This document shows, in pieces, positions 8,562 through 19,037 of a stretch of 32,228 nt of DNA. The notes below the pieces were generated by a model. That model was given only the letters and a program-made list of their open reading frames with translations, had not been told where the DNA came from and ran no database searches. This stretch comes from a virus: the IMG/VR virus record IMGVR_UViG_3300030450_000558, positions 1-32,228 of that record, one strand, 5' to 3'. Positions within the stretch are counted from its first letter, which is position 1; every line of letters starts with the position of its first letter. The translations under genes were made by a program, and so were the position numbers.

Positions 8562-8780
8562 TTATGTCATCTTGTTCTGACCAAGTAAACTTGGTTTTGT
8601 TGTTGGTGCTTCAGCCATCAGACCTTGACCGCCAGTTACATTTGCAGATGCTTGACCTCTTTTTCTCTTTTGAATAGCCGTAGCTCTCTGCTGGGTTTTT
8701 ACCTTTGTAGGCGTAACCGCTGGCTCTGGAGGAGGCGGAGGTGGCGGCGGCGGCGGTGGTGGTGGTTTTAAAAAACTCAT
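8562..8780 (-). CDS. Small protein with a run of 13 prolines
   Basis: 72 residues. After MSFLK come 13 consecutive prolines (codons CCA, CCG and CCT mixed, 8730-8768), then a basic, low-complexity tail rich in Gln/Lys/Arg (KVKTQQRATAIQKRKRGQ) and a Gly/Ala segment. Small proteins with an N-terminal Pro run and a basic tail occur between terminase and portal in several podophages; their role is unclear. Such a Pro run stalls ribosomes without EF-P, so its synthesis, and possibly that of the coupled portal gene 4 nt downstream, would depend on host EF-P. Start and terL stop share position 8780. Confidence 0.65.
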   Translation of the reverse strand: MSFLKPPPPPPPPPPPPPEPAVTPTKVKTQQRATAIQKRKRGQASANVTGGQGLMAEAPTTKPSLLGQNKMT

Positions 8781-10066
8781 TACATTGCTCCTATTTTTCC
8801 AAATGGATTATAATCATTAACAGCCATCATTTGCGGCGGTTTCCCTTCTTTGACTGTTTCGTTGATGGCGATTGAGGCATAACGCCAACTGTCCGCAAAA
8901 TGCGAAGACCAGTCATGTACTGGCGAATTACGAAAGCTTCTAGTCCTTTCATTATACGCCCTATGGTATTGACGAAGAGCATCCAGAAGCGGCTTACACT
9001 TGTCCGCATCAAAGTAACACCTCGGTATAAGCATTTGTGCAGCATGAATCCCATCCTCTACTGGCAGTTTCGGCACGACCCTAAAATTAATTCCCAATGA
9101 ATAGGCAATCTCTCTTCTACTTTTTCCAGTAGACAGTTCCCTAACCTCAATATCATGGGGTGCATAATGTTCACCATACAAATACCTCTTCCTTTGAAGT
9201 ACCTCTACATAATGCGGCAAACCCTCATTTCTATTCTCATAACAGTCAATAACATGAATACTTCTTCCCACCAGCTGCAAAAATACAATGGCGGTGCTAT
9301 CACCAATACCCAGATCCCAAAAAGTCATTACTTTTGCCGATGGATCATATGGCACTTTACAAATTCTTTTTTCTTCTAACGATGCCTGGATCTCTTTTCC
9401 ATAAATACTGCCAGGCACATTCGCAACCCACGAACATTCATACTCCTGGGCAAACTGATCCGCAGTCATCGTTTCCTTGGCACTCTCCAGCTCTTCTTCA
9501 TCAATAATTCCAGTTTCACTCGACTTATGAATAGCTGTTAACCAGTCATCACTTTGAACACCCTTTTCATACATTTCAAAAAAAGCGTTCTGCCCTCTAG
9601 GGGTTCCTACAAAATAACAAAATCCTTTCCTATCTGACAGAGCTGGTCTTATAATCTCTGGAAAGACACTCTCTGGCATATCCGCTACCTCATCCATGAA
9701 ACATCCATCTAGGTATATTCCACGAAGGCTGTCTGGGTTTTCAGCTCCCAGCAAGCTTATTCTCGCTCCATTAGGCAAGTCACACCTAAGTTCTGTTTCA
9801 TGAAACTTAACTGTCGGTATCTTCTCAGCAAACTGCTTTAAATAATCCCAGGCAACTGCCTTGGCTTGCCTATAAGTAGGTGCCAGGTAAGCATACCTTG
9901 GATTAGGCTTTTCACATAATACAGCAGACCTTAACAAATGGTTTATAGCCATAACAGTCTTGCCCATTCTACGATGGCAAACAATAACGCCCCAGCGTAC
10001 TTTGTCCAAGTCCTGGTGCAGTTTAGCTTGCAGAGTTCTCGGTGTGTATGGAATAGTAATGTGCAT
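8780..10066 (-). CDS. terL: Terminase large subunit
   Basis: 428 residues. The ATPase domain has a Walker A variant CHRRMGKT (30-37), a Walker B hydrophobic strand ending in DE (LDGCFMDE, 119-126) and a coupling motif GTPRG (154-158). The nuclease domain begins around FWDLGIGDSTAI (D251), with PHD at 303-305 and a C-terminal HFADSWRY carrying a likely third metal-binding acid. The protein pumps DNA into the prohead using ATP and cuts the concatemer. Its start follows a 270-nt non-coding stretch (10067-10336), unusual inside such a packed operon. No strong ribosome site is visible before this ATG. Confidence 0.92.
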   Translation of the reverse strand: MHITIPYTPRTLQAKLHQDLDKVRWGVIVCHRRMGKTVMAINHLLRSAVLCEKPNPRYAYLAPTYRQAKAVAWDYLKQFAEKIPTVKFHETELRCDLPNGARISLLGAENPDSLRGIYLDGCFMDEVADMPESVFPEIIRPALSDRKGFCYFVGTPRGQNAFFEMYEKGVQSDDWLTAIHKSSETGIIDEEELESAKETMTADQFAQEYECSWVANVPGSIYGKEIQASLEEKRICKVPYDPSAKVMTFWDLGIGDSTAIVFLQLVGRSIHVIDCYENRNEGLPHYVEVLQRKRYLYGEHYAPHDIEVRELSTGKSRREIAYSLGINFRVVPKLPVEDGIHAAQMLIPRCYFDADKCKPLLDALRQYHRAYNERTRSFRNSPVHDWSSHFADSWRYASIAINETVKEGKPPQMMAVNDYNPFGKIGAM

Positions 10067-10336
10067 GAGTGTGTGAAGCTACCATAAGCCTAAGTATATA
10101 TACGATATAGATAGGTGCCAGAGTTCTGGGGGGTATAGGGGGTCAGATAAAATAATTCAGCTGTAAAAATGTACCCACATTGTACCCAATTAATTATGTC
10201 TGATCCTCTATCCCTTATTAACTCTAGGTTAAAGCTTAAAAGGTCACCGCCCTATTAAGACGAAACTTTAAAGCCAGGGGTATGCCATCCATCTCGTGCG
10301 TGTAGTTAAGACAGACAGCGTGTTATATATATACAT
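10067..10336. other. Non-coding interval between HNH gene and terL with inverted repeat and TGTACCCA pair
   Basis: No credible gene. An imperfect ~27-bp inverted repeat lies at 10131-10157 and 10188-10214 (shared core GGG-ATAG-GG-TCAGA-A--AATT). Between the arms are two TGTACCCA octamers (10170-10177, 10181-10188), 11 bp apart, the same unit and spacing as around attP. A second palindrome, TTAAC-TCTAG-GTTAA, lies at 10218-10232. The site adjoins HNH and terminase genes, so a packaging site (cos/pac) is possible. An origin or a remote integrase-binding site are alternatives. Confidence 0.5.
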
Positions 10337-10579
10337 CTAATGCTTAGATCTATTCTTACTCCTTCCCATCATACTTAGATTACTTTGCTTGTTATCCTTT
10401 GGATTACCATTACGATGATCGACATCCTTACCATCAAATGGTCTAGCTCTACCGAGCTTTACCATCTTCCTTCTAGCTCTCTTCCTAGCAGCATTGTCAT
10501 CTCTATGAGCTGCTGAATACTTCCTTTGATAAACAGATCTAGCTTTGGCATTGCTACTATAATCTCCTAAAGCTGGCAT
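10337..10579 (-). CDS. HNH endonuclease-like protein next to terminase
   Basis: 80 residues, very basic. The C-terminal half has DVDHRNGNPKDNKQSNLSMM followed by GRSKNRSK, the compact HNH motif of small phage nucleases (DH... N-G-N...N...NL...NR). In many phages such a protein adjoins the terminase genes and helps cut DNA during packaging. The N-terminal part (SNAKARSVYQRKYSAAHRDDNAARKRARRKMVKLGRARPF) is a basic DNA-contacting helix region. The start overlaps the previous stop by one base (TAATG). The downstream 270-nt non-coding interval may be its or the terminase's target. Confidence 0.72.
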   Translation of the reverse strand: MPALGDYSSNAKARSVYQRKYSAAHRDDNAARKRARRKMVKLGRARPFDGKDVDHRNGNPKDNKQSNLSMMGRSKNRSKH

Positions 10580-10983: not shown

Positions 10984-11406
10984 TTACTGTTGCTCAACTG
11001 TGACATCTCCCTGGTTCCAACTTAAAGTTATGCTACCATTATTAACATTAGCATCTTCCTTCTTATCTCTAAGACCATAAGGCTGTATCCTGGCAAATGT
11101 CCATTTAAGCGTATCAATTTCTAACCGCCTTCTTTGTACCTCTGCATTGAGTAATCTATTGTCTACATCACCACCAGTAGGCAATGGCATTACAGCTAAA
11201 TCATTTATATGATCTGCATAATACTCAGCTTGCAATACTCTACCTCTACGATAGATCTCATACAAATCATCGTCAGCTGCTACAGCTCTGCTGATTGTTC
11301 TGTATTCTGGCAAGGCTGGATCTTTGCAAATCGTAAGCAAGCTTTCACCCATAGCTAAACGATCTGCAATACCTTGCATCATTTTCTTCGTAACTAATTT
11401 TGCCAT
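10984..11406 (-). CDS. terS: Terminase small subunit (Sf6-like)
   Basis: 140 residues, typical of Sf6/P22-like small terminases. The N-terminal DNA-binding helix-turn-helix is visible as IADRLAMGESLLTICKDPALPEYRTISRAVAADDDLYEIYRRGR. The AEYYADHINDLA helix and NAEVQRRRLEIDTLKWTFARIQPYGLRDKK helix form the oligomerisation part, followed by a short C-terminal tail. It recognises the packaging site and regulates TerL. It heads the late packaging operon. The leader 11407-11460 folds into a nested hairpin whose outer arm abuts the AGGA ribosome site. It is separated from the early operon by a terminator-like hairpin at 11491-11506. Confidence 0.85.
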   Translation of the reverse strand: MAKLVTKKMMQGIADRLAMGESLLTICKDPALPEYRTISRAVAADDDLYEIYRRGRVLQAEYYADHINDLAVMPLPTGGDVDNRLLNAEVQRRRLEIDTLKWTFARIQPYGLRDKKEDANVNNGSITLSWNQGDVTVEQQ

Positions 11407-11908: not shown

Positions 11909-12349
11909 TCATGAAGTTCTGTTATGCTTCTTAAAATAAACCCTCTCCATTTTTAATATAAAATCTAACCTCTCGAAATGAGAAGCCTTTTGAATAGCTC
12001 TGACAACATCCATGTATCCATCAGATGAATAATGGGGTCGCATCTTTCTTAGCAACCTATTCAATCTGAACTGTTGATCATCACGCTTTCTCTGATTAAT
12101 GGCATTGACATAATTGTAGCTAGTAAACTTTGCAGCTTTACTTACCAATTGATTAATTTCTTTTGAAAAATCTTTTCGAGGCTCTTCTTTACAGCTAGCT
12201 GTATAGCTTGCTGTATAGCTAGCTTTATCTTTATCAATGTTTATTTTATTAGTGGATGGTACAAGCTGTAAAGCTTTCTGTATAGCTAGCTGTATAGCTA
12301 GACTGACTTCGTCAATTTTATCCGCAGATTTATCCTTGTCAACTGTCAT
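11909..12349 (-). CDS. Hypothetical protein with two 12-bp repeat blocks (possible replication initiator)
   Basis: About 146 residues from the ATG at 12349, which overlaps the upstream stop by 11 nt; a longer in-frame start at 12391 would overlap by 53 nt and is less likely. The N-terminal third is encoded by 12-bp DNA repeats (TGTATAGCTAGC-like) read in two frames: as LAIQLAIQKALQL and as ASYTASYTASC. The C-terminal part is basic and helical (QRKRDDQQFRLNRLLRKMRPHYSSDGYMDVVRAIQKASHFERLDFILKM). No known domain is recognised. Repeats inside a basic early protein gene recall the lambda O arrangement (origin inside the initiator gene); this is speculative. Confidence 0.6.
   Translation of the reverse strand: MTVDKDKSADKIDEVSLAIQLAIQKALQLVPSTNKINIDKDKASYTASYTASCKEEPRKDFSKEINQLVSKAAKFTSYNYVNAINQRKRDDQQFRLNRLLRKMRPHYSSDGYMDVVRAIQKASHFERLDFILKMERVYFKKHNRTS
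12194..12302. repeat. Two clusters of a 12-bp repeat (TGTATAGCTAGC)
   Basis: Cluster 1 at 12194-12223 and cluster 2 at 12264-12302 contain about five copies, some degenerate, of TGTATAGCTAGC or close variants (TGTATAGCTTGC, TGTAAAGCTTTC), in the same DNA orientation with 12-bp period. Each unit includes the palindrome AGCT or AGCTAGCT. The clusters lie in the same gene but in reading frames shifted by one base, so DNA rather than protein sequence is repeated. Confidence 0.75.
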
Positions 12350-12629
12350 TTTCGTACAACGCTCCAGTAATAAATCCATAATTCCCACCATCTATAACAT
12401 GATCCCTTTTGTACCCACCTACATCCATCCTAGCGTATTTCATCTCGCCAATTATTTTTGCTGCTTGCCAGGCTTTTGCTGGTTCTTTTAATTGATCTCC
12501 GAAAGTTAAATTGATTCGCACCGCAAAGTTTCTGTATAGCTCTTCGTAATCTCCAAGCTCCTCGCCTCGCTGTGACAAGATCAATTCTGCCTCTTTTAAT
12601 ACCTCTAGCGGAGTAATTTTTTTTTTCAT
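12339..12629 (-). CDS. DUF6378-like protein (MazG-like helical fold suspected)
   Basis: 96 residues. The layout 'L.eA..i...RG...GDYee...nfa...n......k.p..a....a..Ki.r......Kr.h.iDg..Y' (RGEELGDYEELYRNFA ... AWQAAKIIGEMKYARMDVGGYKRDHVIDGGNYGF) resembles DUF6378 phage proteins, thought to be related to all-alpha NTP pyrophosphohydrolases. The conserved E, D and K residues are partly present, but catalytic assignment is not possible by eye. The start overlaps the zinc-ribbon mini-gene stop (ATGA at 12629-12626), with an AGGGGAAAG site upstream. It might influence nucleotide pools during infection. Confidence 0.6.
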   Translation of the reverse strand: MKKKITPLEVLKEAELILSQRGEELGDYEELYRNFAVRINLTFGDQLKEPAKAWQAAKIIGEMKYARMDVGGYKRDHVIDGGNYGFITGALYENDS

Positions 12630-17540: not shown

Positions 17541-18698
17541 CTAGTTGCCGTACATAGCCGCCGCAGAAGCTGATCTAGCTTTTTCTTGCTTGGCTTCGTT
17601 CTTTACATAGTGACCATACTGCTGATAAGTAAAATTTGGCTTGGCATGACCCATTAAAGAAGCTACCTCTGCCCAATCTTCACCTAAACCAGAAAGTTGA
17701 GATGATGCAAAGAAATGTCTAAAGTCACCCCACCTAATTAAATCTACTCCAGCATCTTCACATAAAAGTTTTGTAATTGGGTTAAATCTTTTTTGACCTA
17801 TAACTGTTCCTAATTTATTTGGAAAAACAAGATCTGAACTTTTGCTATATTTAGATTTCATCTTCCATTCTTTTAAAACAGACATTGTTTTTACATCTAT
17901 TGGTATTACTCTTAAACCTCTTTTTGTTTTTGGCTCACCAATAATTAATGTGGAATGTTTTACTGCTCCAATAACTTTTACCTGGTTAGCATCAAAATCT
18001 ATTTCACTCCATTTGACAGCTCTTAATTCGCCTTGCCTCATTCCAGATGCTATCGCCAATAAAACCATAGATCTAATTTTTAACTTTTGTTTTGGTAAAG
18101 CATCTCTAATTATTTTTTGAATAATCTCTGGTTGTATTTTTACAGATTTATCAGATATGTCAGATGAAGATCCAAATGTAAATTTATCTAATGGGTTGTA
18201 GCTAATCCATCTTTTTAAAGAACAATAATTAAAAAATGATTTTAAATGTTTCAATCTTTTTTCAGCAGTAGCTTTAGATTTATTTTCACCTAAAAAATGT
18301 TTTTTAAAATCTTGTACTAAATCATCCTGGTTAATTGGCTTAACTAATTGTCCAAGAAAATGGTTTTCAAATAATTTACCATCAATCTTATATTTTAAAA
18401 TAAAATTTAAGCTGCCTTTAATATCAGCAAAATGGCTTTTAGAAATTTCGTTATTTGATTTTCTATTATCCTGGTGAACCATAAACTGATCAAAAGCATC
18501 TTTAACTTTAATGTCTTTGACCTCTTCTTTAACAACCATGCCTAAAGTAAATTTAGCTAGTAATTCTTTAGCCTCTTTTTCAGCTTCTACTTTTGTAGCA
18601 TAGTTTCCATAGTTAGGAGTATTAATACCAATTCTTCTTGTATCAATAACATACACTCCTGGTCTATCTGTTCTTTCTTTTACATTTAATGCCTTCAT
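17541..18698 (-). CDS. int: Tyrosine-type integrase
   Basis: 385 residues from the ATG at 18698, chosen because AAGGGGA precedes it; the frame is open to 18773 but crosses the promoter. The N-terminal arm-binding part (PGVYVIDTRRIGINTPNYGNYATKVEAEKEAKELLAKF), core-binding domain (~60-175) and catalytic domain are complete. Catalytic residues: R221 (SGMRQGEL), K257 or K259 (PKTKRGL), R327 and H328 (GDFRHFF), H351 (MGHAK) and nucleophile Y361 (QQYGHY). The first His of the usual HxxR is Gly (G324). It catalyses recombination between attP and host tRNA-Asp. It is transcribed away from attP from its own promoter. Confidence 0.93.
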   Translation of the reverse strand: MKALNVKERTDRPGVYVIDTRRIGINTPNYGNYATKVEAEKEAKELLAKFTLGMVVKEEVKDIKVKDAFDQFMVHQDNRKSNNEISKSHFADIKGSLNFILKYKIDGKLFENHFLGQLVKPINQDDLVQDFKKHFLGENKSKATAEKRLKHLKSFFNYCSLKRWISYNPLDKFTFGSSSDISDKSVKIQPEIIQKIIRDALPKQKLKIRSMVLLAIASGMRQGELRAVKWSEIDFDANQVKVIGAVKHSTLIIGEPKTKRGLRVIPIDVKTMSVLKEWKMKSKYSKSSDLVFPNKLGTVIGQKRFNPITKLLCEDAGVDLIRWGDFRHFFASSQLSGLGEDWAEVASLMGHAKPNFTYQQYGHYVKNEAKQEKARSASAAAMYGN

Positions 18699-18723
18699 TT
18701 TAGTTTCCCCTTTGTTCTGTTTT

Positions 18724-18742
18724 TGATTCTTTTTGCGAATCA
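18724..18742. promoter_or_regulatory. Palindrome in the integrase leader
   Basis: TGATTC and GAATCA arms flank a 7-nt TTTTTGC spacer, between the -10 and the start codon of integrase. It may be an operator or a leader hairpin. No functional evidence beyond position. Confidence 0.4.
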
Positions 18743-18751
18743 CTTGATTTA

Positions 18752-18781
18752 AATATACACCGAAATGACACACAAAGTCAA
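18752..18781 (-). promoter_or_regulatory. Integrase promoter
   Basis: On the minus strand TTGACT (18781-18776), 18-bp spacer, TATATT (18757-18752), about 53 nt before the integrase ATG. The two TGTACCCA repeats at 18788-18806 lie just upstream of the -35, so integrase binding to its arm sites could regulate its own promoter. Confidence 0.72.
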
Positions 18782-18787
18782 ATAAAT

Positions 18788-18806
18788 TGTACCCAAAATG
18801 TACCCA
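18788..18806. repeat. attP-proximal TGTACCCA pair (left arm)
   Basis: TGTACCCA at 18788-18795 and 18799-18806, exactly 11 bp apart, in a TTGTACCCAAAATGTACCC context. Direct octamers at helical spacing beside an integrase gene are the normal form of integrase arm-type sites. Confidence 0.7.
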
Positions 18807-18876: not shown

Positions 18877-18921
18877 TGGCGAGAGTGAAGGGACTCGAAC
18901 CCTCGACCTCCGGCGTGACAG
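18877..18921 (-). other. attP core: 3' half of a tRNA-Asp(GTC) gene
   Basis: Read on the minus strand, 18921-18877 gives anticodon loop CTGTCAC (anticodon GTC, 18919-18917), the 3' anticodon stem GCCGG, variable loop, T-arm GAGGG-TTCGAGT-CCCTT, acceptor strand CACTCTC, discriminator G73 and CCA. The 5' half is absent: upstream bases (GTCGTA) cannot pair with GCCGG. G73 and GTC identify tRNA-Asp. This is the phage copy of the host tRNA 3' end, the usual core that restores the tRNA after integration. Crossover probably occurs in or near the anticodon loop. Confidence 0.88.
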
Positions 18922-19007
18922 TACGACATTTTGGGGTAATGGGTTCCCATGTTTGGCAGAAAACAGTCATTTAGTATAATGGCTTGCCATGTGTTCCCAC
19001 ACAAAAC

Positions 19008-19037
19008 TGTACCCAGATTGTACCCAAAATGTACCCA
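19008..19037. repeat. TGTACCCA triplet (right arm of attP)
   Basis: TGTACCCA at 19008-19015, 19019-19026 and 19030-19037, each 11 bp apart. They are in the same orientation as the pair on the other side of the core. Between core and triplet lie related GTTCCCA elements (near 18952 and 18993) that might bind excisionase. The rest of 18922-19077 holds no gene. Confidence 0.7.

Follow-up and report, generated by a model that had tools for sequence, protein, structure and literature searches.

The integrase of Tn916 reportedly binds the oriT of its own element, and Hinerfeld and Churchward are said to have proposed in 2001 that this binding stops transfer starting before excision. Excision is linked with transfer also in ICEMlSymR7A, where RdfS binds attP and a second regulatory site (PMC11963761). 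How temperate phages keep integrated DNA out of their capsids is a standing question, and in situ packaging is described for P22 and some staphylococcal prophages (PMC8575938).

The window analysed here, which is the whole stretch of 32,228 nucleotides, derives from a 32.2 kb virus contig and belongs to a temperate relative of the HTVC010P-type pelagiphages, whose TerL proteins (57-58% identity) are those of the closest isolates. It contains an octamer pair in the gap between terS and terL which repeats the arms of a distant attP, and the features discussed below are as follows:

8780-10066, - strand: terL, terminase large subunit (PHROG, Pfam)
10067-10336: non-coding gap of 270 nt between terL and the HNH gene, downstream of terS
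10095-10143, - strand: element B, from ACCCCCTATACCCCCC (10128-10143) to TATCGTATATATA (10095-10107); contigs of relatives end at its edge
10131-10214: imperfect inverted arms of ~27 bp around the remote pair (about 10131-10157 and 10188-10214)
10170-10188, + strand: remote pair TGTACCCA-cat-TGTACCCA (on the terL strand TGGGTACA), the variable slot
10293-10331, - strand: element A, from TATATATAA (10323-10331) to CTACACGCACGAG (10293-10305); contigs of relatives begin or end at its edge
10337-10579, - strand: small HNH endonuclease gene
10984-11406, - strand: terS, terminase small subunit (Sf6-like)
17541-18773, - strand: tyrosine integrase gene (int); the conserved protein start is the ATG at 18698
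18788-18806, + strand: attP arm adjoining int, a TGTACCCA pair starting at 18788 and 18799
18877-18922, - strand: attP core region, the 3' portion of a tRNA that resembles tRNA-Asp on inspection
19008-19037, + strand: other attP arm, three TGTACCCA copies starting at 19008, 19019 and 19030 (11-bp spacing)

The gene region upstream of terS also contains two direct repeats with a 12-bp period at 12198-12301 (GCTGTATAGCTT and CTGTATAGCTAG), and similar AGCTATA repeats are present in several relatives. One contig filed as a Euryarchaeota MAG (L419, PAOW01000004.1) codes for a TerL which shares 67% identity with the query; it probably comes from a phage and was misbinned.

The octamer pair and its surroundings in the window

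Exact counting of TGTACCCA gave nine copies on the + strand and none on the - strand, where 0.59 were expected, and not one of 100 shuffled windows contained at least nine; the octamer is thus not frequent genome-wide, and the high frequency which the preliminary description had named as speaking against a special site is not seen. Five of the copies, in two blocks, flank the 3' part of the tRNA just upstream of the tyrosine integrase gene, and ARAGORN found no complete tRNA in this core region. Two more start at 10170 and 10181, with 11 bp from one start to the next. They lie 104 bp before the start of terL and 8.6 kb from attP, and these exact copies confirm the earlier observation that the attP unit and its 11-bp spacing recur in the 270-nt gap. 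The 8-3-8 pair is confined to the remote site and the two attP arms, and is absent from the backward control. The copies at 12410 and 26044 are taken as chance copies, since both are unpaired and lie within genes; the former had been noticed before as the single further copy on this strand, whereas the latter had been missed.

While the two attP blocks enclose a core, no tRNA-like core was found at the remote slot, nor any tRNA with ARAGORN, and the slot consists of arms only. With the core missing, the slot was rejected as a second attP, which also leaves the earlier suggestion of a second recombination target unsupported, and no support was obtained for an origin of replication.

The inverted arms which had been noted around the pair exceed chance in the window, both when the flanks are aligned and compared with shuffles (p = 0.003) and in the single-strand DNA fold of the region (z -2.9). 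Arms above chance were seen in 0/14 other slots, so that the arms, though real in the window, are specific to its lineage and outside the conserved feature; a conserved hairpin or cruciform was rejected, the arms being confined to the window. No intrinsic terminator was found.

Slots, attP arms and integrases in related phages

In relatives from IMG/VR, the place upstream of terL, between terS and terL, carries a direct octamer pair with ~11-bp spacing, and the octamer varies between phages (TGGGTACA, TTAGTCCA, TGTACACA, TGTTTGCA, TGTTAACA, GTGGACAA and others). In G001 (98.5% identical over 10.6 kb) the same G-to-A change is found in both slot repeats, and in L081 and L082 the orientation of the pair relative to terL is reversed. 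For a contig-wide search, attP arm motifs were first derived de novo from the neighbourhood of int, as 7-mers with at least three copies and a pairing distance of 10-12 bp, and each contig was then scanned for distant pairs of its own motif. A remote pair was found in 12 records, at one place in each and upstream of terL in all of them (12/12, at 98 to 1496 bp), with about ten different octamers represented among these 12.

The slot and the arms change together. In a matrix of slots against integrase-upstream regions, 13 of the 17 phages showed a match with their own partner, compared with 11% off the diagonal, and 0/200,000 permutations reached 13, with the reservation that the records are mutually related and such p-values are optimistic. 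The slots of G118, G120 and G124 had been located via attP, and so are not independent; leaving these out, the own match is 10/14. Further matches between slot and attP were found in G162, G165, G174, G175 and G176. Where the slot was recorded first and attP fetched afterwards, a match of at least two copies was present in all eight phages with the attP region on the contig (8/8), a set which contains some close relatives and leaves out G178 (slot string incomplete), G131 and G199 (no attP on the contig). The copy excess in the window, the single remote place and the own-match permutations together led us to reject a chance origin of the octamer pairs.

The correspondence is imperfect in several phages. 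G132 lacks the match between slot and attP, and in G114 the slot was not found. In G017 the attP arms read TGTACCCA/TGTACTCA and the slot TGTACACA, a one-base mismatch which perhaps reflects a recent change of integrase or a tolerated base. Two phages, G019 (L151) and G034 (L158), have an intact integrase and terL slot pair, a single arm copy upstream of int and no tRNA core seen there, and their attP region is possibly degenerate or rearranged.

Presence of the pair also follows presence of the integrase. On contigs 31 kb or longer it was found in 22/23 with a tyrosine-integrase match and in 0/9 without (Fisher 4e-7, based on counts assembled by hand and ignoring relatedness), while some contigs below 31 kb have the pair and lack the integrase in the recovered part. 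HTVC010P and HTVC035P gave no tyrosine integrase, and no pair was found within the 580-700 bp preceding their terL. The pair is therefore not universal among terL relatives, as the group with 57% TerL identity is mostly without it. GTDB proviral relatives (TerL about 50%) had no repeated pair upstream of terL, and are weak controls because no integrase was found in their flanks either. One member of the 57% group, L138 (terL match at 688), carries the octamer pair AATTAAGGCACAATTAAGGCA ahead of terL, and may be a temperate phage in a group that mostly lacks the integrase.

The N-terminal domain of the integrase is predicted to consist of three strands and a helix, as do the arm-binding domains of lambda- and Tn916-type integrases, and a Foldseek search with the whole integrase model matched the Tn1549 and lambda integrases. 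Within one clade, an Arg at a fixed position before the third strand goes with arms containing G (GGCA..., n=6) and a Gln with arms containing T (TCAC..., n=11), with exceptions in 0/17, and wherever the slot is known in this clade its base is that of the attP arm (G or T). Arg-guanine and Gln-adenine contacts are textbook examples, which makes a direct contact of this residue with the tracked base plausible. G024 (L154) and G023 (L152) have similar integrases with the arm octamers TGTACACA and TGTTAACA, respectively, and their N-terminal loops between strands 2 and 3 read ARRVGYSVNYGN and ARLVGLNNRYGN.

In the window and its relatives the motif of the remote pair is that of the repeats flanking the attP core. 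Given this shared motif, and the co-variation of the pair with both attP and the integrase's N-terminal domain, the sequence at 10170-10188 can very probably be regarded as an arm-type site of the integrase in a remote position. The ligand of the octamers is likely to be the integrase itself, since the pair tracks the integrase and the N-terminal residue tracks the base in attP and slot.

The presumptive packaging region and the proposed role of the pair

In the relatives the slot is always flanked by element A (GCTACGCGCGCGAG or TCGCGCGCACGAG) on one side and by element B (ACCCCC-ACC-CCCC ... TATACGTATA) on the other, no matter if the start of terL is 98 bp or 1.5 kb away, and A and B are retained between terS and terL in lineages without integrase. 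Among contigs beginning within 1,950 bp upstream of terL, 8/70 start in a single 11-bp bin at the terS-side edge of A (p = 1e-8, about 2e-6 corrected for bins), and on the terS side contigs end near this same edge of A and at the far edge of B. The 37,378-bp contig G162 both starts and ends at the A edge, and its relative G187 (L503) is continuous across it. As contigs break at the edges of A and B, the A-B region is strongly suggested to be the presumptive terminase cut region, although breaks in assemblies are an indirect sign; breaks at both edges are an imperfect fit to a single cos cut and to a terminal repeat alike. Inspection of the record ends of HTVC010P and HTVC035P showed no obvious shared terminal sequence. 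In G023 and G115 there are terminal overlaps of about 99 bp which could pass for terminal repeats, and which are probably assembly k-mer overlaps of circular graphs.

The reading we favour, tentatively, is that 10170-10188 may well be an integrase arm-type pair within the terminase cut region, at which bound integrase gates packaging. The integrase would bind the remote pair via its N-terminal domain, and would hinder the terminase in recognising or cutting A-B during integration, or during excision before packaging. Integrated DNA, and DNA on the point of integrating, would thereby escape packaging, whereas late in the lytic cycle, with little integrase present, packaging could go ahead. The flipped orientation and variable terL distance fit simple occupancy of A-B better than they fit promoter geometry or a fixed synapse, though they do not settle the matter. 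The preliminary description had listed a remote integrase site and a cos/pac site as separate guesses, and in our reading these merge, with Xis becoming less likely as the ligand; the looping with attP which it also suggested is conceivable.

Transcriptional control of terL is the main rival to such a packaging gate. Integrase at the pair would then repress or activate a promoter in the terS-terL gap, keeping expression of terL and the structural operon low during integrase synthesis, and the nearness of the packaging site would be incidental. In its favour, the pair lies in a non-coding gap, 104 bp before terL starts, there is a TATA-like sequence in element B, directionality factors, RdfS among them, bind a promoter in addition to attP (PMC11963761), and promoter control would fit the co-variation equally well. 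Promoter-like sites are not clearly above chance, however (4 found, 2.0 expected), the orientation to terL flips between relatives, and terL may be as near as 98 bp or as far as 1496 bp although the pair keeps its place between A and B, and we consider this explanation rather unlikely.

We think it improbable that the role of the pair is architectural, with integrase joining the remote pair to attP, or one genome end to the other should A-B be a terminal repeat, and thus aiding circularisation or sensing an intact circle before recombination. Arm-binding integrases are bivalent and able to bridge DNA, as is established for lambda Int. The contig ends at the edges of A and B are what a direct terminal repeat might give, and P. 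skadi, of the HTVC010P type, is reported to have such a repeat of 125 bp (PMC10504331), but the flipped orientation in relatives argues against a fixed synapse and the slot is without a core site. Reading of the octamers at both places by a recombination directionality factor (Xis-, Cox- or Apl-like) rather than by the integrase appears very improbable: Cox- and Apl-type proteins do bind direct repeats at attP and promoters, as in P2 and 186, but the copies here lie on both sides of the core in the fashion of Int arms, the 11-bp pair of P2 is an Int arm with the Cox sites being different, and it is the N-terminal residue of the integrase which tracks the base. A slot without function, a relic or decoy that arose as a copy of attP, for which the one-base difference between the G017 slot and its own arms could be cited, is hardly credible given the repeated co-variation across many lineages and the absence of the pair without integrase.

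Returning to the packaging gate, the signature is repeated across phages and ties the integrase to the packaging region, with the integrase-free lineages without the pair as a natural control. Since a remote tag in the apparent packaging region changes in step with the integrase, this suggests that a widespread marine phage group links integration to packaging. It is possible, though we propose it with some hesitation, that in this marine temperate phage family the recombinase marks or blocks the packaging site until excision, and that the operator is rewritten with each change of integrase specificity. A one-residue specificity code would predict binding and aid the prediction of integrase specificity from sequence, and control of excision before packaging becomes directly testable in relatives of abundant ocean phages.

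Comparison with known systems

Arm-type sites are already known, and their separate placement at the packaging region would be the new part, for which a limited search of open-licence papers found no phage precedent. The Int P' arm annotated in P2 consists of two repeats spaced by 11 bp (TGTGGACAcTGTGTGGACA) and is distinct from the Cox sites, the same architecture as in the phages studied here, and no remote arm pair was found elsewhere in the genomes of P2 and HP1, which served as controls; HTVC008M was left out of the controls. HP1 resembles the window in having Int sites near the packaging site (attP annotated at 251-694, cosL at 1-9), but there it is attP itself that lies near cos, whereas in the window a core-less arm pair lies at the packaging region with attP 8.6 kb off. 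Unlike the window, the HTVC010P-type pelagiphages HTVC010P and HTVC035P, of the type closest to it by TerL, have no tyrosine integrase and no pair in the stretch covered upstream of terL. RdfS differs in being a directionality factor of the winged-helix type that acts at its own promoter; in the window the integrase is the likely ligand, and the site lies between terS and terL.

By analogy, Tn916 Int at oriT would be the closest functional precedent. In both, a tyrosine recombinase with an N-terminal arm-binding domain would sit where the DNA of its element is processed, at a distance from the attachment site, although Tn916 is a conjugative element with a relaxase site and the phages have a terminase region instead. 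The Tn916 sites were reportedly shown by binding assays and the phage slot is known from sequence alone. The co-variation of the site across a whole family is new in these phages relative to Tn916.
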